In this document: positions 1 to 9,389 of the stretch, one piece after another
Layout: the number at the start of each line of letters is the position of its first letter
Numbering within the stretch: position 1 is the stretch's first letter
Assembly (NCBI GenBank): GCA_026388545.1
Contig: JAPLJS010000018.1
Span: 1-33,223 of the forward strand
Reading direction: 5' to 3'
DNA length: 33,223 nt
Source of the DNA: Deltaproteobacteria bacterium
GTDB taxonomy: Bacteria > Desulfobacterota > Syntrophia > Syntrophales > UBA2185
The notes under the pieces: generated by a model
The model's database searches: none
The model's input: only the letters and a program-made list of their open reading frames with translations
What the model was told of the DNA's origin: nothing
Position numbers and translations under genes: made by a program

Positions 1-39
1 AATCATGGCATCAGCACCTATGTCTTTAATATTTAACAT
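1..39 (-). CDS. possible 5' end of a minus-strand gene running off the window
   Basis: Reading leftwards from an ATG at 39-37 gives 13 open codons (MLNIKDIGADAMI) up to the window edge. This would be a gene transcribed away from the one at 339. No convincing ribosome-binding site precedes it and 13 codons are too few to identify a family. It could equally be chance. Confidence 0.15.
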   Translation of the reverse strand, partial: MLNIKDIGADAMI

Positions 40-118
40 TATTCATACCATTTTCGGGAAACAGTGTCAAGAGAAATATGCACAAATGTTAAATTATTTT
101 AACGCCTTACACTAATAA

Positions 119-139
119 TGACTTTTTACGATGTCGTCA
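119..139 (+). repeat. dispersed intergenic motif, copy 1
   Basis: The copy begins TGACTTTTTACGA and ends GTCGTCA, so its ends form the inverted pair TGAC/GTCA. The same ACTTTTTAC core with a nearby TCA or TCG end recurs at 9705, 10816, 13716 and 13861, always outside genes. Family identity is not established. Confidence 0.5.
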
Positions 140-338
140 AACTTAATCTTAAAAATAAAAAAACCAATCTGAGATCCTATCTTTTGACATTATCATAATG
201 CAGGGTTTTCCCCTGGATATTCCCTACGATCTATTCCTATTGCACATCCCAATAAGATTCTCTATAAAGTAACAATCATTATACTCTGACACCAAATTAT
301 ACAGTAAGATTTTCCATTATCAGAGAGGATTATTACAC

Positions 339-545
339 ATGCGTATAAAAACCATTACAGCAGAGGATAATATGGACCAAACAGAACTGAGAAAAAAAGC
401 AGAGGCGTTGGGGGTCTTAGAGACATCGATTCTTTCTGCTCATATGAAGTTTTTCAGGGTAAATTCAGAAACCCATTATCACTTGGATGGTGAGGAGTCT
501 GTTCTCTATGATTCTGTCATCAAGTATTTTACGGGCAAATCTTGA
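339..545 (+). CDS. small protein of unknown function
   Basis: A 68-residue ORF starts at ATG 339 behind AGAGG, about 11 bases upstream. An internal ATG at 372 (MDQTELRKKAEALGV) is an alternative start. I do not recognise the family. The N-terminal part (DQTELRKKAEALGV) has the look of a short amphipathic helix, and the C-terminal part carries HYHLDGEESVLYDSVIKYF. There is no signal peptide, membrane segment or cysteine. It is the first of a run of small plus-strand ORFs ending at the GT5 gene. It may be a real small gene or a fragment, and the coding call rests only on the open frame and a fair ribosome-binding site. Confidence 0.45.
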   Translation: MRIKTITAEDNMDQTELRKKAEALGVLETSILSAHMKFFRVNSETHYHLDGEESVLYDSVIKYFTGKS

Positions 546-629
546 TAGTTAGAACATTTGTGAAATCCACTAATTACCACAATGACTTGCACGGCGATAT
601 ATTTTTGAAGGTTTTTGAGGTTCACGGGA

Positions 630-881
630 ATGGCAGATAAAGGGATTACTAAACATCAAATAGTACAAGAACTCGCTGAATTGCGCTGGCGAATTAACAA
701 ATTGCAAGACTGGACGCGGCAAATGTTTGGCACTGAAGAGGAATTCCTTAATCAGAGTCAAACTTCTCAATTCTTTCTCGGTTTGGGATTATCTCAGGTG
801 GTCAAAACCGAAGATGAGTCCACCATTGAAAAAAATATCCATAGAAGATGGGGCTATAAGCAAATTAAAGGAGGATTATGA
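630..881 (+). CDS. short ORF resembling the leader of a PAS-type sensor kinase, probable fragment
   Basis: The ORF gives 83 residues from ATG 630, with GAGG at 617-620 and 9 bases of spacing. Residues 6-25 (TKHQIVQELAELRWRINKLQ) match the coiled-coil leader that precedes PAS domains in many deltaproteobacterial histidine kinases, and closely resemble residues 129-148 of the kinase at 2914. After that the sequence is not a recognisable PAS domain and the ORF ends at 881. The last codons contain the AAAGGAGG ribosome-binding site of the next gene. I infer the remnant of a truncated kinase gene whose end was fixed by what follows. A genuine small protein cannot be excluded. Confidence 0.45.
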   Translation: MADKGITKHQIVQELAELRWRINKLQDWTRQMFGTEEEFLNQSQTSQFFLGLGLSQVVKTEDESTIEKNIHRRWGYKQIKGGL

Positions 882-882
882 A

Positions 883-1065
883 ATGAAAATTCAGGAGATA
901 CGTGAGATCGCAAAGTCATGGGGTGTTGATACGAAGGTCAGCCGCTCCAAGCAGGATATCATTCGTGATATTCAGATAATTGAGGGAAATTCACCATGTT
1001 TTCGTACAATAGAAACATGCGGGAACAATTGTCTGTGGAAGAAGGACTGCACAAACGGAAAATGA
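883..1065 (+). CDS. SAP/Rho-N-like small protein with four-cysteine tail
   Basis: The start is ATG 883, with a near-perfect AAAGGAGG at 867-874 and 8 bases of spacing, giving 60 residues. An upstream in-frame start at 727 is not supported. Residues 1-34 (MKIQEIREIAKSWGVD, then KQDIIRDIQIIEG) fit a short helix-extended-helix SAP or Rho-N-like fold, normally used to bind nucleic acid. The C-terminal third has C39, C46, C50 and C56 around CFRT, NNCLW and KKDC, which suggests a metal site. From memory, similar SAP proteins with a C-terminal CF...CLW..DC motif occur in Desulfobacterota; their role is not known to me. Its TGA overlaps the ATG of the following GT5 gene (ATGA at 1062-1065), so the two are probably translated together. 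Confidence 0.7.
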   Translation: MKIQEIREIAKSWGVDTKVSRSKQDIIRDIQIIEGNSPCFRTIETCGNNCLWKKDCTNGK

Positions 1066-2699
1066 AATTACGCGTAAGTTACAAGATTAATAAAGTGCCG
1101 GGAATTTATATAAAGGACCGGAACCGTCAACGTCACGTAAACCTTCCGTCGAAGGGGTCAAAGAATGTAAGAACATTTGAAATCCTGAAAAAGACGGAAA
1201 GGACGGCCGTATTGCTGGTATCTCCGGAGACGGGGAGATTGCCGGACGCGATGGGGGATCTTGCCAGGTATATTTCCGGGAAGGCGGGGGGCCTGGGCGA
1301 GGTGGTTTCCGCGTTATGCGAAGGGCTCCGGGCCAGGGGGATTGAATGCCATCTGGCGACGCTGAATCTGAAGAAGCGGTTCCAGAGAGAAAGCAACATG
1401 GATGAAAATATGTGGAGGGAAATCAGATATAAAGTCGATCCTGATAAAGTCCACCTGGTAAGTTCATCCATTTTTGCTAACCTTTCCTGCGCATATTCGG
1501 GGGACCCACTATTAAACGCCGCCGAGTTTCAGAAAGAAGTGGTAAACAACATCATTAAGACTGTCCGGGCCAAAAACGGAGGAAGGCTGATTCTCCACAG
1601 TCACGACTGGATGGCAGGAGGGGCGGTTACGGCCTACGCGAAAGCGCGAGACTGTCCGGTACTGCATACCGTTCACAACGTTCATACGGGCCATATCCCT
1701 ATTGAGATGCTTTTCGGCGTTGATGTTGACAGCCTCTCGTGGAATATCTACTTTTCCGAAGAATATGGGAAGAAATGCATCGACAGTCAGGCAACAGCCA
1801 TTAAGAGCGCCACTCTGGTCAATTTTGTCGGGGAAAAGTTTCTTAAAGAGGTCATAGGAGATTATTTCCTAGACAGATTTTTCATCCCGCCAAGTGTAAG
1901 ACAGGAAGTCAAGGCAAAGTATAATCAAAGTGCGGCATTGAGCATCATGAATGCAACGTCCCCCAGGATGTATCCGGAACAATGTGAACACCTTGTAAAA
2001 AAATACGGTCCTGATGATGACGTTATGGCCACAAAAAGGGAAAACCTTTTGGAATTTCAGAAGAGAACCGGGCTTAATATTAATCCCGATGCGATCCTCC
2101 TTTACTGGCCATCACGATTGGACCCATCTCAAAAAGGCGTTGAACTTCTCAAAGATATCGCTCTTAAATTTGTTATAGAGCACGGCGACGTGCAGATAGC
2201 GATCGTGGGGAACGGTGTCGGGCGTGATCAGACCCATGAAGAAATCTTAGGAAGAATCGCTTGTTCCTCCGGGGGGAAGATCACGTATCAGCGTTTCAGT
2301 GAGAGGCTTTCCATGCTCGGTTATGCTGCTGCCAGTGACGTCTTCGGTGCTTCTCTCTATGAGCCGTGCGGCCAGATCGATCAGATCGGGAATCTCTTTG
2401 GAGCGACGGCGACGAACCGTGACACGGGCGGTTATCATGACAAGATAGAAGAGTTGCGGTTGAAGGTTGACGGCGCTTCCGAGGATGGGGGAAATGGATT
2501 TCTTTTTCAGAATTATGATCCCGGTGGTTTGTGGTACGGATTATCCAAGAGTGTGCAGTTTCACAGAAAACCCCTGGAAATAAGGGAAAAGCAACTCAAA
2601 AGGATCATGAGGGAGGCGAGAAAAAAGTATGATTTAGATACTATGATTGACGAATACGTAAAGGTATATGAAAGGCTCAATAGAGGACCTCTCTCGTGA
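1062..2699 (+). CDS. glycogen/starch synthase-like glycosyltransferase, family GT5
   Basis: This is a GT-B fold glucosyltransferase of the glycogen synthase type, which transfers glucose from a nucleotide sugar to an alpha-1,4-glucan. With the start at ATG 1062 (545 aa), it shows KAGGLG at about 74-79 (the KTGGL nucleotide loop), HSHDW at 179-183, SRLDPSQKG at 351-359, and YEPCGQ..Q..NLFGA...RDTGG at about 433-457, the C-terminal catalytic signature. The KAGGLG loop normally lies near residue 15. Here about 55 residues precede VSPETG, and a further segment (LPDAMGDLARYIS) separates that from the loop. I chose 1062 because it overlaps the SAP gene's stop; the frame is open from 996 but that would run inside the SAP gene. 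No glycogen branching, phosphorylase or GlgC gene is nearby, so substrate and donor are inferred from family only. Confidence 0.85.
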   Translation: MKLRVSYKINKVPGIYIKDRNRQRHVNLPSKGSKNVRTFEILKKTERTAVLLVSPETGRLPDAMGDLARYISGKAGGLGEVVSALCEGLRARGIECHLATLNLKKRFQRESNMDENMWREIRYKVDPDKVHLVSSSIFANLSCAYSGDPLLNAAEFQKEVVNNIIKTVRAKNGGRLILHSHDWMAGGAVTAYAKARDCPVLHTVHNVHTGHIPIEMLFGVDVDSLSWNIYFSEEYGKKCIDSQATAIKSATLVNFVGEKFLKEVIGDYFLDRFFIPPSVRQEVKAKYNQSAALSIMNATSPRMYPEQCEHLVKKYGPDDDVMATKRENLLEFQKRTGLNINPDAILLYWPSRLDPSQKGVELLKDIALKFVIEHGDVQIAIVGNGVGRDQTHEEILGRIACSSGGKITYQRFSERLSMLGYAAASDVFGASLYEPCGQIDQIGNLFGATATNRDTGGYHDKIEELRLKVDGASEDGGNGFLFQNYDPGGLWYGLSKSVQFHRKPLEIREKQLKRIMREARKKYDLDTMIDEYVKVYERLNRGPLS

Positions 2700-2913
2700 G
2701 GATGTATTCTTCCTCATTATGAAGGTAGATTATATGCATAACTATACTTTTGATATCCTGAATTTTGCCACTCACTTCGGCCGTTGGGAGTGAGAAAAGA
2801 CGAAGAATAGTTCTCCGGCGTTTGGGATTGATGCAGGATGAAAGAAGAAAATAGTTGAAGTGAAATATTACTTTATCAATTGATTCTTGCATGACGGGAA
2901 GGAGTTTATGAAA

Positions 2914-4944
2914 ATGTACAGTGATGATACCTCTAAATTGGAAAATATCGCACACTTAAAACGTTCTCTTGAGGAAGCTGAGATAATTAAAAGCGGCATG
3001 AAGCTGGTTTTGATGAATCCATCTTTAGATTCTATGCGCAAAGGCGAGTACGAGAAAGCGTTTACGAAGCTAAACGATGAAATTCGAGACCTGAAAATGA
3101 TGATGGGCTACGTACGAAAAAAACGCATTCCTTTGGGACTAATGAATATGGTGCTTAAAAAGTCTGACATGCTCCAATTATTTACACCGCCTTTTGTCTC
3201 GCAATTTTGTAGAATCACTTCTAAGAATATACATTCTGCGCAATTAATTTGGCTGGAAAGATTAAACACAGGGGGCAACCCGATGAAAGATCAATCCAAG
3301 ACAAAGCAGGCATTGATTCAGGAACTGGATTCTCTAAGACGGAGGATCGCAGAGCTGGAGCAATCGCAATCAGAGCGCAAGCCGGTGGACGATTCGCTAC
3401 GTCTTCAGAGCGAGATTTTGGCGAACATGAAGGAAGGTGTACATCTGACTCGCGTTGACGATGGCGTGATTGTTTATGCAAATCGATGCCTTGAGGGAAT
3501 GCTTGGTTACGATCCGGACGAACTTATCGGCAAACACGTGAGTATTCTCAATGCTCCGGGTGTCAAAAGCCCCGAGGCCGTTGCAAACGAGATTATCAGA
3601 AGTCTTGAACAACCGGGAGTATGGAATGGTGAAGTACACAATATCAGAAAGGATGGGACCTCATTCTGGTGTTATGCCAATGTTTCAAAATTTAAACATC
3701 AACAATATGGCGAAGTGTGGATATCGGTGCATCAAGACATCACCGACCGTAAGCGGGCTGAAGAGGAAAAGGCAAAACTCGAACATCAAAACCGGCAACT
3801 CCAGAAGGCCGAAAGCCTGGGCCGCATGGCCGGGGCCATTGCCCACCACTTCAACAATCAGCTTCAAGCAGTGATCGGGAACCTGGAGATGGCCATTGAC
3901 GACCTACCACAAGGTGCGGGACCCGTCAATAGCCTGACCGCAGCCCTGCAGGCGGCAGGAAAAGCGGCGGAGGTAAGCGGCCTGATGCTGACCTACCTCG
4001 GACAAACGCCCGGCAAACGTGAGCCGCTTGATCTTTCCGAAACCTGCCGCCGGAGTCTGCCCATGCTCCATGCCGTCATGCCGAAGAACGTGTGCATGGA
4101 GACTGATTTACCCACCTCCGGGCCGGCAGTCAGCGCAAACGCAAACCAGATGCAACAGGTCCTGACCAATCTGGTCACCAATGCCTGGGAGGTCGTCGGT
4201 GAAGGCCGGGGTGTCATTCGACTGTCCGTCAAAACTGTTTCCCCGGCGGATATCCCCGCATCGCACCGATTCCCCATAGACTGGCAGCCGCAGGACAATG
4301 CCTATGCCTGCCTGGAAGTGGCGGACGCGGGCAGCGGGATAGCGGACGATGATATCGAGCATATCTTCGACCCGTTTTTCTCCAGCAAGTTCACCGGCCG
4401 GGGCTTGGGCCTGCCCGTGGTCCTGGGGATTGTACGGGCGCACGGCGGGGCCGTCACGGTGGAGAGCGAACTGGGCCGGGGGAGCGCCTTCCGGGTCTTT
4501 TTCCCGGTGTCTGTGGAAGAAGTCCCCCGGCAGCCGGACAAAGAAGCCCAAGCTCCGGAAATGGAAGGGGGCGGCACGATACTGCTGGTCGAAGACGAGG
4601 AGATGGTGCACGACATGGCTGCTGCCATGCTCAAAAGTCTTGGTTTTACAGTGCTCGCAGCAAAGGACGGCGTCGAGGCTGTGGAGGTGTATCGACAGCA
4701 CCAGGATGAAATCCGTTGCGTCCTTTGCGACATGACCATGCCGCGCATGAACGGCTGGGAGACATTGGCGGCCCTGCGCAAACTCGCGCCCGACATCCCG
4801 GTGATCTTGGCCAGCGGTTACAACAAGGTCCAGGTCATGGCAGGCGACCATCCCGAATGGCCTCAGGCATTCTTAGGCAAACCTTATCGGATCAAGGAAC
4901 TTAGCGACGCGGTCAGCCAAGCCCTTATCAACAAGAAGAAATGA
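2914..4944 (+). CDS. PAS-domain hybrid sensor histidine kinase with C-terminal receiver
   Basis: Numbered from ATG 2914 (677 aa; AAGGAG at 2899-2904), domains in order are: an unrecognised region of about 120 residues, a coiled leader TKQALIQELDSLRRRIAELE (129-148), one PAS domain (about 163-273), a dimerisation helix with the H-box AHHFNN (phosphoacceptor probably H311), an N-box LTNLVTNAWE (N423), G-boxes DAGSG (471-475) and GRGLGL (495-500), and a receiver domain with ED at 561-562, phosphoacceptor D606, S634 and K656. There are no membrane segments, so it is probably a cytoplasmic redox or ligand sensor. A second credible start is ATG 3283 behind AGGGGG, which would give a normal PAS kinase of about 554 residues. 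The first 120 residues and the PAS part are AT-rich, whereas the kinase core and receiver from about 3780 are GC-rich, suggesting a mosaic gene. No output regulator lies next to it. Confidence 0.88.
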   Translation: MYSDDTSKLENIAHLKRSLEEAEIIKSGMKLVLMNPSLDSMRKGEYEKAFTKLNDEIRDLKMMMGYVRKKRIPLGLMNMVLKKSDMLQLFTPPFVSQFCRITSKNIHSAQLIWLERLNTGGNPMKDQSKTKQALIQELDSLRRRIAELEQSQSERKPVDDSLRLQSEILANMKEGVHLTRVDDGVIVYANRCLEGMLGYDPDELIGKHVSILNAPGVKSPEAVANEIIRSLEQPGVWNGEVHNIRKDGTSFWCYANVSKFKHQQYGEVWISVHQDITDRKRAEEEKAKLEHQNRQLQKAESLGRMAGAIAHHFNNQLQAVIGNLEMAIDDLPQGAGPVNSLTAALQAAGKAAEVSGLMLTYLGQTPGKREPLDLSETCRRSLPMLHAVMPKNVCMETDLPTSGPAVSANANQMQQVLTNLVTNAWEVVGEGRGVIRLSVKTVSPADIPASHRFPIDWQPQDNAYACLEVADAGSGIADDDIEHIFDPFFSSKFTGRGLGLPVVLGIVRAHGGAVTVESELGRGSAFRVFFPVSVEEVPRQPDKEAQAPEMEGGGTILLVEDEEMVHDMAAAMLKSLGFTVLAAKDGVEAVEVYRQHQDEIRCVLCDMTMPRMNGWETLAALRKLAPDIPVILASGYNKVQVMAGDHPEWPQAFLGKPYRIKELSDAVSQALINKKK

Positions 4945-4965
4945 ATCATTTAAATGAATCATTTA
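4941..4965 (+). repeat. 12-bp tandem direct repeat over the kinase stop codon
   Basis: ATGAATCATTTA occurs at 4941-4952 and again at 4954-4965, one base apart. The first copy contains the TGA stop (4942-4944) of the hybrid kinase. It looks like a small duplication, and no function is evident. Confidence 0.6.
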
Positions 4966-5220
4966 GTGGAGAAGATGCTTCACGGGTAAAGGTAATTGAT
5001 CATTTGAACTGGCAATCATCACTCCAATTCCAAATCGAAAACCCTTGACAAGGTATTGCAAATAACCAGGTGGGACTTCATTTGACAACATAAGTAATGT
5101 CGTCTTATATGGATTTCCCTTCCAACAGCCTCCTCTTCGCCCTCAGTTGAACACTCGCATACCTCTTGACGCTCTCCCTTCGAACATGATCCGTCAGCAG
5201 GTGTAAGCGTTGTAACGGCT

Positions 5221-6468
5221 TCATTCGTGGATCGATTGACTTTCCCGCATCCAGTTTCTCCCCCCCAGTATCCTGGCGACCACCATGCCGGCGACATTAT
5301 CGCCGATGGCATTCACCATGGTTGCCGGAGGGTCAACGAGGGTTCCGATCATCGTAATGATCGGGAAGACCTCCGGAGGGAATCCGTATAGTGAAATGAT
5401 CAGCAGCTCTCCAATTGTGCCGCCTCCGGGAATACCGCTCACCACCGTGCCGCACAGAATGGCGATGCCGATCGCCGTCAGGAGGGTCTGAGTCCCTGAG
5501 AAATCCATGTGGAATAACCCGAATAAAAAGGCGATTTTCAGAATAGCGGCGAGGCAGGAACCTTCCATGTGAATGGTTGCTCCAATAGGAATAACGACTT
5601 CGCTGATGTCCCTGGGGATGCCCGTGTTGTTCGCCGCCTCAAGATTTAACGGGATGGTCGCCACACTGCTCCCCGTGGCCAGGGCCGTAAGAGATGGCGG
5701 GATGATGTTTTTCCAGAACGTTCGCACACCGGTACCCCCCGCGGCAAGGTATGCGTAAAGGGTAAAGGCAATGAAGAAATAGAGGATGGTGACGGGATAA
5801 TAGAGCGTCACGGCACGGACGTAGGAACCCAGCAGTTCAGGACCGTATACCCCGATGAAATAGGCGAAATAGGCGCATAATCCGACCGGTGCATAGTACA
5901 TGATATAATGAATGACCTTCATCATCACCTCGTTTGCGGAGGTGAGAAAGGTGGAGAAGACCTTCCCCTTTTCCCCGATGGAAGAGGTGGCGAGCCCGAT
6001 GAGGATGGAGAAGATGATCAGGGCGAGCATGTTCTTCTTCGACAGGATATCCAGGAAATCGGGCGCTGCAAAGGCCTTGACGATCTGTTCTGAGGTTTTG
6101 AACTGCTCCGGGCTGGCAGGGAAAGTTAAATCCAGCGTGATTCCTGCGGCCGGCGGATAAAACTGAACGGCAATGGCCATAATCGTCGAGGCGGCAATTC
6201 CCGTCAGGATGAACACAAACAGCATGGACGAGAGAATCTTACCCAGGCGCCGAACATTGGACATGCCGGCAACGGCCGAGGCGATGGAAAAAAACACAAG
6301 GGGGACAATCGCGGTAAAGAGGAGGTTCAGAAAAAGATCCCCGAAGGGTTTTAATACAACAGCCTCCTTTTTCAGGACGATTCCCAATAGAGAGCCGATG
6401 CCGATGGAGACGATCAGCAGAATCGAAAACCCGTAGGACCTGAAAAATGTGGATGACTTTCTATTCAT
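5221..6468 (-). CDS. dicarboxylate/amino acid:cation symporter (DAACS family)
   Basis: The 415-residue protein from ATG 6468 is a cation-coupled carrier for anionic substrates such as glutamate, aspartate or C4-dicarboxylates. Evidence is the multi-helix profile of the family, ATGSSVATIP (the serine-rich re-entrant hairpin), IPIGATIHMEGS (the NMDGT-type motif, here HMEGS), IPGGGTI, and near the C-terminus NAIGDN (386-391), which holds the conserved N..GD cation/substrate signature. The frame stays open to 6759, but that extension is inside the dipeptidase gene and not membrane-like. The start at 6468 has GGAG 4 bases upstream. It is the last of four minus-strand genes, about 100 bases from the dipeptidase and separated from it by a GC-rich inverted repeat. 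The exact substrate cannot be read from sequence. Confidence 0.88.
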   Translation of the reverse strand: MNRKSSTFFRSYGFSILLIVSIGIGSLLGIVLKKEAVVLKPFGDLFLNLLFTAIVPLVFFSIASAVAGMSNVRRLGKILSSMLFVFILTGIAASTIMAIAVQFYPPAAGITLDLTFPASPEQFKTSEQIVKAFAAPDFLDILSKKNMLALIIFSILIGLATSSIGEKGKVFSTFLTSANEVMMKVIHYIMYYAPVGLCAYFAYFIGVYGPELLGSYVRAVTLYYPVTILYFFIAFTLYAYLAAGGTGVRTFWKNIIPPSLTALATGSSVATIPLNLEAANNTGIPRDISEVVIPIGATIHMEGSCLAAILKIAFLFGLFHMDFSGTQTLLTAIGIAILCGTVVSGIPGGGTIGELLIISLYGFPPEVFPIITMIGTLVDPPATMVNAIGDNVAGMVVARILGGRNWMRESQSIHE

Positions 6469-6571: not shown

Positions 6572-7345
6572 TCATTCGATGACAAAATCGAAATAGGTCT
6601 TCGGAAAGGGTTCGCCACGCAGGGTAAAGTGCCACCATTCTTTCTCGTAGTTCTTGAAGCAGTGTTTTTCCATGATCGCTTTGAGCAACAAACGGTGGAT
6701 TCTCTGTTTTTCGCCGATCTTTTTGTTCGCCGTATGGGATAGTTCGTGAAAACAGTCAAAACCCGTTCCCATGTCGATGCTGTTATCTTTGAATCGCTTC
6801 TCTGCGGGGAGATGACATGCGTTCATTTTCTCTCCCTCCTGATACGAAGCTTGCTCACGAACGGGGAGGGAAACAATGGTAACGTCAACGGTACTGCCCC
6901 TGGAGTGGCCTGATTTGGTGTCGATGTAGACCTGCTTAAAAAGGTCTCTCTTTTTCTTCGTGGGATAGAATTCCCTTTTGCTCCTTGTGTCACTGCCATC
7001 CCTTGCCCACCGGACAAAGTGATCGACCGACCGCTGCGGCCGGTAGCAGTCATAGACCTTGAGCGATAAGGAGAACGCCTCAAGTTCTCTCTGTACCTTT
7101 GCGAGGGCTGTTGCCGCCTCCCTCGTGAGGAGGCATTTGGGGGCGTTATAGCCGTCGATCCGCTCCCCGACGAAATTGCGAGGACCGTAGTACCGGATAT
7201 CGAGAAGGATGGAAGGGATCACCTCTTTTACATCCACAAAACGGTCGGGCATTGTGCTTTCACCGTGGCAATCATCCGCAAGCAGCGACTGGCCGAGGAA
7301 TATCAGCAGGAAAAAGGGCAGTGCAAACAGGAATATTCGTTTCAC
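6572..7345 (-). CDS. VanX-like D-alanyl-D-alanine dipeptidase, M15 family, exported
   Basis: This is a zinc dipeptidase expected to hydrolyse D-Ala-D-Ala. The 257-residue protein starts at GTG 7345, with AGAGGG in the tail of the upstream gene and about 9 bases of spacing. Residues 1-23 form a signal peptide (MKRIFLFALPFFLLIFLGQS), so it acts in the periplasm. The family signature SGHSRGSTVD gives zinc ligands H147 and D154, EWWH gives catalytic E236 and zinc ligand H239, and YRPQRS supplies R102. All key positions of VanX are present. Only three bases separate it from the stop of the L,D-transpeptidase gene, so the two are likely coupled. A periplasmic location and lack of vanHA argue for murein turnover rather than vancomycin resistance. 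Confidence 0.9.
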   Translation of the reverse strand: MKRIFLFALPFFLLIFLGQSLLADDCHGESTMPDRFVDVKEVIPSILLDIRYYGPRNFVGERIDGYNAPKCLLTREAATALAKVQRELEAFSLSLKVYDCYRPQRSVDHFVRWARDGSDTRSKREFYPTKKKRDLFKQVYIDTKSGHSRGSTVDVTIVSLPVREQASYQEGEKMNACHLPAEKRFKDNSIDMGTGFDCFHELSHTANKKIGEKQRIHRLLLKAIMEKHCFKNYEKEWWHFTLRGEPFPKTYFDFVIE

Positions 7346-7348
7346 TTT

Positions 7349-8089
7349 TCAATACCCTCTGATCGTTCCGCTCGTCCCCATGACAACCAGGGGTCTTGAC
7401 GCCGGATTAAGCCACCGGAGAATTGTAACAAGATCCTCTTCCGATAGGGCAACACAGCCTTCCGTGGGTTTTTCGTTTCCTCGCCAGAGGTGAAAAAAGA
7501 TGGCGCTCCCATGACCTTTAATGACGGGATTCATGTTATATTCCACAACGATCCCGTACTTGTACAGGTTGTCGTCCCGTTTCATTCTTTCAAACGAAGA
7601 TGCTTTGGTTGCTCCCCTCTTGACCCATCGGTTGTAGTCATCGGCGTGGACGTCATCGACCCAGAGGTCGTCATCGGTGGCCTGCCGGTAAGGCATCCTT
7701 GTCGGGAAGGAAGGATCATAGCCGAAGACCATCCCAAGGGGGAATATCCCCGAAGGAGTCCTGCCGTCTCCTTCCCTCTTCTCCCCCGGCGGTGCAAAGC
7801 CCTTCCTTCCGATTACACCGTCCATGGGAGGAAAAGGACTCTGCCAGCGGCCATTTCTCTTTTCCAGGGCAATAACGTGAACGTCAATCGAGACAGGATT
7901 CATATTTCGGATGAGGAGAATCTGGGAGGATTCGCCGATCAGTTTTTCGGGGGGAGCAGACAGAGATTTCCCTCTCACCGGCTGAACTTCCCGAAGGGGG
8001 GATGTGTCGGGAATCTGGGCGCATGCCAGGGGAAGAAAGAGCGATGCGAGAATCATCAGAGAAACCGATATGGAAACGCTTATTATCAT
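7349..8089 (-). CDS. exported L,D-transpeptidase (YkuD family)
   Basis: This is a peptidoglycan-modifying enzyme of the YkuD/ErfK type. From ATG 8089 it is 246 residues. Residues 1-24 are a hydrophobic export signal ending LACAQ, so it is periplasmic (C22 makes a lipoprotein conceivable, but the context is not a clear lipobox). The catalytic region reads FFHLWRGNEKPTEGCVAL with H200 and the nucleophile C212; TEGC replaces the common SHGC, as in the subfamily that has HVWRG...TAGCVAL. Upstream come DGRTPSGIFPLG and the KGHGSAIFFH strand. The start is uncertain: TTG 8107 has AAAAAGGAG 12 bases upstream and may be preferred. The open frame extends to 8287 but overlaps the HD gene. Confidence 0.87.
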   Translation of the reverse strand: MIISVSISVSLMILASLFLPLACAQIPDTSPLREVQPVRGKSLSAPPEKLIGESSQILLIRNMNPVSIDVHVIALEKRNGRWQSPFPPMDGVIGRKGFAPPGEKREGDGRTPSGIFPLGMVFGYDPSFPTRMPYRQATDDDLWVDDVHADDYNRWVKRGATKASSFERMKRDDNLYKYGIVVEYNMNPVIKGHGSAIFFHLWRGNEKPTEGCVALSEEDLVTILRWLNPASRPLVVMGTSGTIRGY

Positions 8090-8222
8090 GGAGGCACTGA
8101 GGGACAATCGCGATGAAAGCTCCTTTTTGATGGGCGCAGTATAGGACAAGGAGGTTTGTCTGTCAAACAGAAAGAGGGAGAGAGAACGATAACAGCGTCC
8201 CCTGAAAAACCTGGACGCCGAC

Positions 8223-9389
8223 CTACACGCCGTCCCGCGGATGAAACCCATCCTCGCAAATGCCTTCGATGCAATACTGGGGATCAATGAGGAAATTTTT
8301 GAAGATAGTCACAAACGCAAGAGCAGCCTGTATCATCAATGGTTTGTCTTTATACAGCTGATCCAGTTTTTGTTTGTGTTCCTCGGCGCTGCTGTATTCA
8401 AAGTAATTCATAAACAAGCCATCGAGCCTGGAGCGGTCACCGGACCTCGTTACCTCAAGCGTACCCCCTGCCTTGCAATAATTCATTGTATCTAAAATAA
8501 GTTTTCGCTGCTGTTCTACGTCTCTCATATGATAATTAAAAATATGAATGATGATTCGCTGCGCTTCCTCCATGCCGGCCCTGACGAGCTGTTCGAACAA
8601 GGGCTGCGCCGCCGGATCGTACGTCATGGATCGCTTCTGGCGGACAAGCGACAATAAGACGGCGTTCTTAAAAAGCTGATAGAGCCGGTAGGCGCCGTAC
8701 AGGGGATGCCGGACCGGGTGTTGCACTTCAGGTTCGGGGGGCTGGTAGTTCTTAATGTAGAGGATGTTAAACAGGGCGCCGAAAAAATCGACATGTTCGA
8801 TGGGATCATAAAATTCAGAATGCAAATCCAGAGTATTGTCGAGACGATCGGCAAGCTTCACGCGCACGAGCTCAGGCGTTTGTTGAGCCCGGTTCATGAG
8901 CCTTCCTATATAGGTGAAATATGATTCTTCTCCATGACGGGACAATAAGTCGAGCCGCTCCATGAGATACCAGTTGTCATTGGGATCGTTTTTATACAGG
9001 AATTGTTTGAATTCATTTTCCAATTGTTGATAATAATTATTCCCGTATTTATCTTCAGTGTAATTGGAGGGTTGAATATCCTCATGCTTATCGTGAAGCA
9101 GCACGGTGAGCAAATCAAGCATATCGGCTTTTTCGACGGTCCGGGAAAGAATGGCAGTGGCGCGCAGGGGATGAATCACGGACATTGGTCCCAAGCGGCG
9201 GTGCTGATCTTTATAGGCATGGTTGAGATAGGAGAGTGCATCAAGCAGGATGTTATGCTGTTCCCGACTTAGTTTCATATCGCCGATGATGATTCTCAAA
9301 ATATTCCAGCCGAAATCGCCTGAAACGGACAACTGATAATTGAGGGCCGCTGATAATTTAAAGAACTCAGTTAGATTATAACGAATCAT
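8223..9389 (-). CDS. HD-domain phosphohydrolase resembling the (p)ppGpp hydrolase half of RelA/SpoT
   Basis: The 388-residue protein starts at ATG 9389 behind AGGAG with 8 bases of spacing. The N-terminal half carries the RSH-type HD signature: H73 in IHPLRATAIL, H99-D100 followed by E103-D104 (LLHDKHED, the HDxxED arrangement of manganese-dependent ppGpp hydrolases such as SpoT and Mesh1), and D181 in VKLADRLDN. There is no synthetase, TGS or ACT domain, so it is not a full RSH protein. The C-terminal 200 residues are helical-looking and unrecognised. It begins a minus-strand run with the two cell-wall enzymes, after a gap of about 130 bases. Hydrolysis of (p)ppGpp or another nucleotide is inferred from the motif only. 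Confidence 0.75.
   Translation of the reverse strand: MIRYNLTEFFKLSAALNYQLSVSGDFGWNILRIIIGDMKLSREQHNILLDALSYLNHAYKDQHRRLGPMSVIHPLRATAILSRTVEKADMLDLLTVLLHDKHEDIQPSNYTEDKYGNNYYQQLENEFKQFLYKNDPNDNWYLMERLDLLSRHGEESYFTYIGRLMNRAQQTPELVRVKLADRLDNTLDLHSEFYDPIEHVDFFGALFNILYIKNYQPPEPEVQHPVRHPLYGAYRLYQLFKNAVLLSLVRQKRSMTYDPAAQPLFEQLVRAGMEEAQRIIIHIFNYHMRDVEQQRKLILDTMNYCKAGGTLEVTRSGDRSRLDGLFMNYFEYSSAEEHKQKLDQLYKDKPLMIQAALAFVTIFKNFLIDPQYCIEGICEDGFHPRDGV

Follow-up and report, generated by a model that had tools for sequence, protein, structure and literature searches.

A four-cysteine mini-protein gene paired with divergent GT5 glycogen-synthase-like genes in Syntrophales, a possible accessory factor of alpha-glucan metabolism

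What role could a 60-residue protein with four cysteines play when its gene runs directly into the gene of a glycogen-synthase-like enzyme? The question was raised by a preliminary description of a 33,223-nt stretch of DNA from a Deltaproteobacteria bacterium of the order Syntrophales (assembly GCA_026388545.1, contig JAPLJS010000018.1, positions 1 to 33,223; hereafter the window). It had reported a small protein with cysteines at positions 39, 46, 50 and 56 and a SAP/Rho-N-like N-terminus, overlapping the start of a GT5 gene by ATGA, and had suggested that an RNA- or metal-sensing protein could thereby regulate carbohydrate storage. The open reading frame (ORF), its cysteines and the overlap were found as described, and the following features were assigned to the locus:

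139-198, forward strand: C-terminal remnant of a PAS-LuxR regulator, 19 codons and stop (alignment with loci L054 and L055)
372-545, forward strand: 57-codon ORF, putative gene (conserved in the paralogous locus L054)
630-881, forward strand: 83-codon ORF, putative gene, stopping 1 nt short of the mini-protein (conserved in L054, where the length differs by 18 nt)
867-874, forward strand: probable ribosome-binding site of the mini-protein, AAAGGAGG (sequence; similar in L054, L055 and L061, weaker in L058)
883-1065, forward strand: SAP/Rho_N-like four-cysteine mini-protein, 60 aa, MKIQEIREIAKSWGVDTKVSRSKQDIIRDIQIIEGNSPCFRTIETCGNNCLWKKDCTNGK (sequence, family alignment, fold model)
883-984, forward strand: Rho_N/SAP-like helix-loop-helix, residues 1-34, with invariant K23, Q31 and E34 (alignment, Rho_N matches, model)
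997-1050, forward strand: four-cysteine (Cys4) tail C39-x6-C46-x3-C50-x5-C56, including W52 (invariant cysteines, 56/56 members)
1062-1065, forward strand: ATGA start/stop overlap (also in L054, L055, L058 and L061)
1062-2699, forward strand: divergent GT5 glycosyltransferase, glycogen/starch-synthase-like, 545 aa (PF08323, TIGR02095, motifs, 2qzs)

The TGA stop of the mini-protein (1063-1065) overlaps the ATG (1062-1064) that opens the GT5 frame, and the two genes are probably translationally coupled at this ATGA; we infer coupling at the operon level as well. The overlap is not peculiar to the window genome, since five junctions of the window's family, from four genomes, have ATGA (the window and the four loci listed above), and the other 18 of 23 junctions examined have a gap. 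Across these 23 loci the distance was -4 nt in five, +23 to +64 nt in 15, and 115, 196 and 393 nt in the remaining three, as measured to the first plausible in-frame ATG and with a cut, lower-scoring homologue in one locus. Upstream of the pair, the PAS-LuxR regulator is longer in homologous loci and is cut down in the window to its last 19 codons. The two putative genes at 372-545 and 630-881 are conserved in the C58 paralogous locus and absent from the corresponding locus of genome G002.

In an alignment of 56 members of the mini-protein family K23, Q31, E34 and the four cysteines were invariant, and position 52 was W or F in all 56. The Cys4 tail is probably a metal site, with zinc as the most likely ion; a broken gene in genome G383, which lay outside the alignment, has lost one of the four candidate ligands. 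No Pfam or NCBIfam model matched the window mini-protein above its cut-off. The dN/dS ratio against relatives of the window copy was 0.11-0.35 (computable in 4/6 pairs), and this, together with the invariant cysteines and the conserved gene pair, argues that the gene is more than a chance ORF.

The SAP/Rho-N-like character of the N-terminus stands at the level of the family, the window protein itself falling below threshold. The window mini-protein scored 17.1 bits against Rho_N (PF07498; Pfam gathering cut-off 24.9) and had no match to SAP (PF02037) at E ≤ 1, while at E ≤ 0.01 Rho_N was matched by 38/56 family members (best E-value 7.7e-10) and SAP by 3/56 (best 3.6e-5). The family profile A2 matched the Rho chain 3l0o with an E-value of 0.0052. 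An AlphaFold model of the mini-protein (mean pLDDT 85) has helices at residues 3-13 and 23-34, followed by a cysteine-rich tail with a short helix, and it could be superposed on the N-terminal helices of Escherichia coli Rho (residues 9-44) over 36 residues with an rmsd of 1.6 Å and a Z-score of 3.7, which is weak on the program's own scale. A Foldseek search with the model gave no match at E ≤ 0.001, and no clear counterpart of the Cys4 tail emerged from the fold searches, which barely test this part. A helix-loop-helix like that of the Rho_N/SAP helical domains is predicted for the mini-protein, which differs from them in being small and free-standing and in carrying an invariant Cys4 tail beyond the part matched by Rho_N (residues 1-29).

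The partner enzyme scored 53 bits against the starch/glycogen synthase catalytic domain (PF08323, cut-off 22.7), which confirms the earlier GT5 assignment, and 133.7 bits against the GlgA model TIGR02095 (NCBIfam cut-off 328.45); with one cut-off passed and the other missed it is GT5-like yet divergent. Its best PDB match was the glycogen synthase 2qzs (E-value 1.3e-12). The window enzyme carries the motifs KxGGLGEV, HDW, SRLxxxQKG and EPCG, of which the last three align to 2qzs, and KxGGLG (with L/M variation), HDW, SRLxxxQKG and EPCG recur in eight aligned members; presumably these motifs have catalytic roles. The PF08323 signature and the motifs are shared with the ADP-glucose glycogen synthase GlgA, but the window type is set apart from GlgA by its TIGR02095 score, by QIDQ instead of LTQ after EPCG, and by its occurrence also as a fusion behind a GH57 domain.

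Mini-protein homologues were detected in 22/60 relatives (E ≤ 0.01) and in 37/119 genomes of the order (E ≤ 1e-6). For the pairing analysis 57 mini-protein matches were cross-tabulated against 118 GT5 matches in the 119 order genomes. Matches of at least 90 bits, a line set after the scores were known, were considered as close homologues (41 matches), which left 13 matches at 60-90 bits and three below 60 bits. A divergent GT5 gene lay within 2.5 kb downstream on the same strand of 22/41 close homologues; the other 19 had none in this range, a few of them being cut by contig ends. Such contig-edge cases (e.g., contigs C107 and C90 of genome G005) were counted as unpaired, and the G383 copy was counted within the 41 despite its broken gene, next to which the GT5 gene is intact. 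Among the matches of 60-90 bits one of 13 was paired (genome G365, 70.6 bits, cut by the contig), and it precedes a GH57-GT5 fusion. Seen from the enzyme, a mini-protein stood in front of 14/41 GT5 frames shorter than 600 aa, a standalone set in which fragments and six more distant GT5s, full or partial, are included, and in front of 9/77 longer, fusion-length frames. A divergent GT5 was present in each of the 34 order genomes that have a close homologue and in 52 of the 85 that have none (Fisher p = 2e-6, uncorrected for kinship). The window genome has two intact mini-protein/GT5 pairs. In front of another GT5 paralogue of this genome (L080; genome G000, contig C115, 34242-35962) the mini-protein has decayed, and the cysteine tail alone is still recognisable.

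The pair spans standalone GT5 enzymes and GH57-GT5 fusions and occurs in three gene arrangements. In the first a GT3-GT35 fusion, the mini-protein and a GH57-GT5 fusion follow one another (L074, L185, L188, L189, L191 and L194, and L076 and L195, which are cut by contig ends), and seven of the 23 junctions (the six complete loci and L076) lie between these phosphorylase and synthase fusions. Counted from the last sense codon of the upstream enzyme, the distance to the mini-protein start is 16-28 nt in all six complete loci. The second arrangement has a GT35 phosphorylase, the mini-protein and GT5 (L186 and L192), with an upstream gap of 68-69 nt. In the third a PAS-LuxR regulator precedes the mini-protein and GT5 (L054, L055, L058, L061, L063, L042, L183 and L078), in some loci with a Usp gene behind; here the gap in front of the mini-protein is approximately 120-715 nt in the first seven loci, L078 having longer gaps, so that a control site is possible there. 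In L062 the LuxR gene, the mini-protein and Usp lie beside a divergently oriented GH57-GT5 gene. The mini-protein is not required in such surroundings, since LuxR and GT5 occur without it in five fetched loci (L198, L199, L201, L202 and L205), and GH57-GT5 in 13 (L200 and L209-L220). The Pfam scan covered five regulators, a phosphorylase and a single example of either fusion type, and the remaining labels were transferred by tblastn with those proteins. A histidine kinase upstream of the mini-protein was considered and rejected, as Pfam gave PAS and LuxR-type GerE domains in 5/5 regulators scanned; phmmer searches with kinase fragments gave almost no matches. The two fusions are giant and stand side by side in L074 (GT3 glycogen synthase/GT35 phosphorylase, 2125-6399, approximately 1,425 aa; GH57/GT5, 6643-9342, approximately 900 aa), and similarly in L185, L188, L189, L191 and L194.

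At the level of the phylum, 86 of the 297 genomes sampled gave matches to the mini-protein (E ≤ 1e-3). A few were partial; those in open frames of approximately 420 aa that aligned to residues 1-31 alone are probably Rho itself. A total of 60 phylum stretches, mostly from the top of the match list and thus non-random, were searched for neighbours using GT5, GH57, GT3, GT35, GDE, GT4 and CBM48 queries; GH13 and GH77 were left out and GlgC was recognised by eye. GT5 was next door in five stretches, all of one family (f58), and other same-strand alpha-glucan genes in four more. In f58 the mini-protein lies directly before an ordinary GlgA, with a GTGA overlap (-4 nt) in L122 and L125 and a distance of +1 nt in L124, L127 and L133, if GTG is the start; GH57-type genes follow the pair in L124 and L125. 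A sixth f58 match (genome G096) has an internal stop. In 3/4 loci of family f59 the order is mini-protein, small protein, GlgC and Usp, so that GlgC is the second gene downstream (Pfam run on L132 alone), and in L123 a GH57 gene with a branching-enzyme C-terminus, a GT4 and a further GH57 gene lie upstream of the mini-protein. A GT4 gene just upstream in L156 and a convergent GT35 gene in L164 were not counted as glycogen neighbours. The remaining 51/60 stretches had no same-strand gene matched by these queries beside the mini-protein. A preference for GT5 neighbours, whose absence would have spoken against the preliminary description, is seen within the order and recurs with GlgA in a second lineage, but it does not extend to most of the wider phylum sampled. 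The four-cysteine part was also found at the C-terminus of two long frames, L177 (3683-5089), which is a PAS-histidine kinase (PAS-HATPase, Pfam), and L178 (around 4723-4875), from the same genus.

When the rows of a 51-row GT5 tree were given four labels, by presence or absence of the mini-protein and by fused or standalone enzyme, 11 changes were needed, as compared to a mean of 27.9 for shuffled labels. The labels are thus clustered, with several gains or losses, and the 22 pairs represent far fewer independent events. The window GT5 gene is a mosaic, positions 1681-2220 being 97-100% identical to the G002 copy and the adjoining 60-base blocks 68-92%. A second tract (approximately 781-1020) shares 95-97% identity with the C58 paralogue, against which synonymous divergence was 0.18 for the mini-protein and 1.1 for GT5. 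A conserved nucleic-acid element was set aside as the cause of this low synonymous divergence, because the 781-1020 tract and the similar GT5 tracts shared with another genome point to a mosaic formed by recombination or gene conversion. A known RNA element near the pair was likewise rejected, as no Rfam family reached its gathering score in positions 1-5000 of the window.

The recurrent pairing suggests that the mini-protein helps to run or control the carbohydrate store of the cell. We lean, with somewhat less than even confidence, toward its being a factor that assists or regulates alpha-glucan (glycogen) metabolism by acting on the enzymes themselves. The partnership with GT5 is read from gene order; that the enzyme rather than RNA would be the target is favoured by the place of the mini-protein between phosphorylase and synthase genes, with a short gap to either side, in eight loci, and by its position immediately ahead of the synthase gene in two lineages of GT5. 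In such a mechanism the mini-protein would be translated just ahead of the GT5 synthase, in the window probably coupled to it, and coupling of this kind would keep the two proteins at a fixed ratio. The N-terminal Rho_N/SAP-type helix-loop-helix may serve as a docking module, on protein or on RNA, and the Cys4 tail, probably folded round a metal ion, could double as a redox or metal switch. Possible actions on the enzymes include activation, assembly, or a shift in the balance of synthase and phosphorylase. A stricter version is rather doubtful. In it the mini-protein would be a stoichiometric subunit of a glycogen machine in bacteria, responsive to metal or redox state, and a switch that is encoded between the phosphorylase and the synthase and sets the direction of turnover. 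It would also be a dedicated small regulatory subunit of the synthase, one that different GT5 lineages have acquired on at least two occasions.

A different role, possible if on the unlikely side, is that of a nucleic-acid-binding regulator whose helix-loop-helix binds RNA or DNA and whose Cys4 tail is a zinc knuckle, and which adjusts its own glycogen operon here and other genes elsewhere in the phylum. The Rho_N matches, the superposition on the Rho N-terminus, the scattered neighbours in the wider family and the PAS-LuxR regulator upstream in eight loci are in its favour, and a basic, Rho_N-like N-terminus would suit the binding of nucleic acid no less than docking on a protein. The helical N-terminus of Rho, however, is not known as its main RNA site, the 16-28 nt behind the enzyme gene in six loci leave little room for a control site, and the Rfam search speaks against it as well. 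Charge points both ways. The N-terminal 34 residues are basic across family members (mean net charge +4), most of all in the GlgA-paired f58 members (mean +5.8), but the window protein has a net charge of only +1 and GT5-paired members are less basic than other phylum members (means 3.1 and 4.4, p = 0.0065, without kinship correction); against unpaired close homologues (mean 3.8) the difference gave p = 0.26. Given these mixed results net charge was given no weight as an arbiter between mechanisms.

The four invariant cysteines, the fusion to a PAS-HATPase kinase and the PAS-LuxR regulators in front of the mini-protein would also suit a general redox or metal sensor module of the signalling kind, placed beside energy-store enzymes as these are among its outputs. 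We regard this as improbable, for the long-frame fusions number two, both in one genus, and a change of state of the cysteines is putative. Least probable, and in our judgement very much so, is that the small gene is a bystander fixed beside GT5 through shared ancestry and duplication, with no functional link. Paralogous copies and recombination tracts in the window's family, the many GT5 loci without a mini-protein and the clustered labels on the GT5 tree would be expected of a bystander, but the mini-protein recurs with two GT5 lineages and in three arrangements, immediately in front of the enzyme gene where the spacing is tight, and this and a dN/dS below 0.35 argue against one. Should the pair work by enzyme-level action, as we favour, it would represent a separate way of gating the energy store in these anaerobic bacteria and would give the uncharacterised Cys4 family a first testable function.

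No publication that connects a small SAP or Rho_N protein with glycogen genes of bacteria emerged from the literature searches; among the matches listed, papers combining "SAP domain" and "glycogen synthase" were by title on eukaryotic biology or medicine. A 2024 review of prokaryotic alpha-glucan enzymes (PMC11046441) contains no "SAP", "Desulfo" or "Deltaproteobacteria" in its first 300,000 characters. The controls of bacterial glycogen metabolism named in passages of this review are allosteric regulation of ADP-glucose pyrophosphorylase, HPr acting on phosphorylase, PhoP-PhoQ, the PTS, CsrA and cAMP-CRP; neither a small protein encoded together with the synthase as its partner nor the giant GT3-GT35 and GH57-GT5 fusions appear in these passages. 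HPr, described there as a protein regulator of E. coli glycogen phosphorylase, is a precedent for a small protein controlling a bacterial glycogen enzyme by binding, but it is a different, PTS-associated protein, and the mini-protein is known here from sequence and gene order.

The 21 homologue loci with record titles came mostly from metagenome assemblies labelled Syntrophaceae, Syntrophales or "Deltaproteobacteria". A phage origin of the mini-protein was rejected, as 50,697 phage records held no match to it. A search of plasmids matched two records, from Leptospirillum and Megamonas. The Leptospirillum ferrooxidans plasmid p49879.2 (NC_006909.1, L180), which was typed as mobilizable, encodes a homologue from outside the phylum with 44% identity, and no annotated glycogen gene lies within 4 kb of it on that stretch. 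A second, lower-scoring mini-protein occurs in L079, L082 and L085-L089 within a conserved gene order that also comprises Lgt, a SpoU methylase, CutA, a glucokinase and a LytR_C protein, beyond which a patatin gene lies on the opposite strand in some loci (labels from one member of each scanned). In six loci of the window's family, one of which was scanned, a lower-scoring mini-protein is found two genes downstream of a gene of the glucokinase type.
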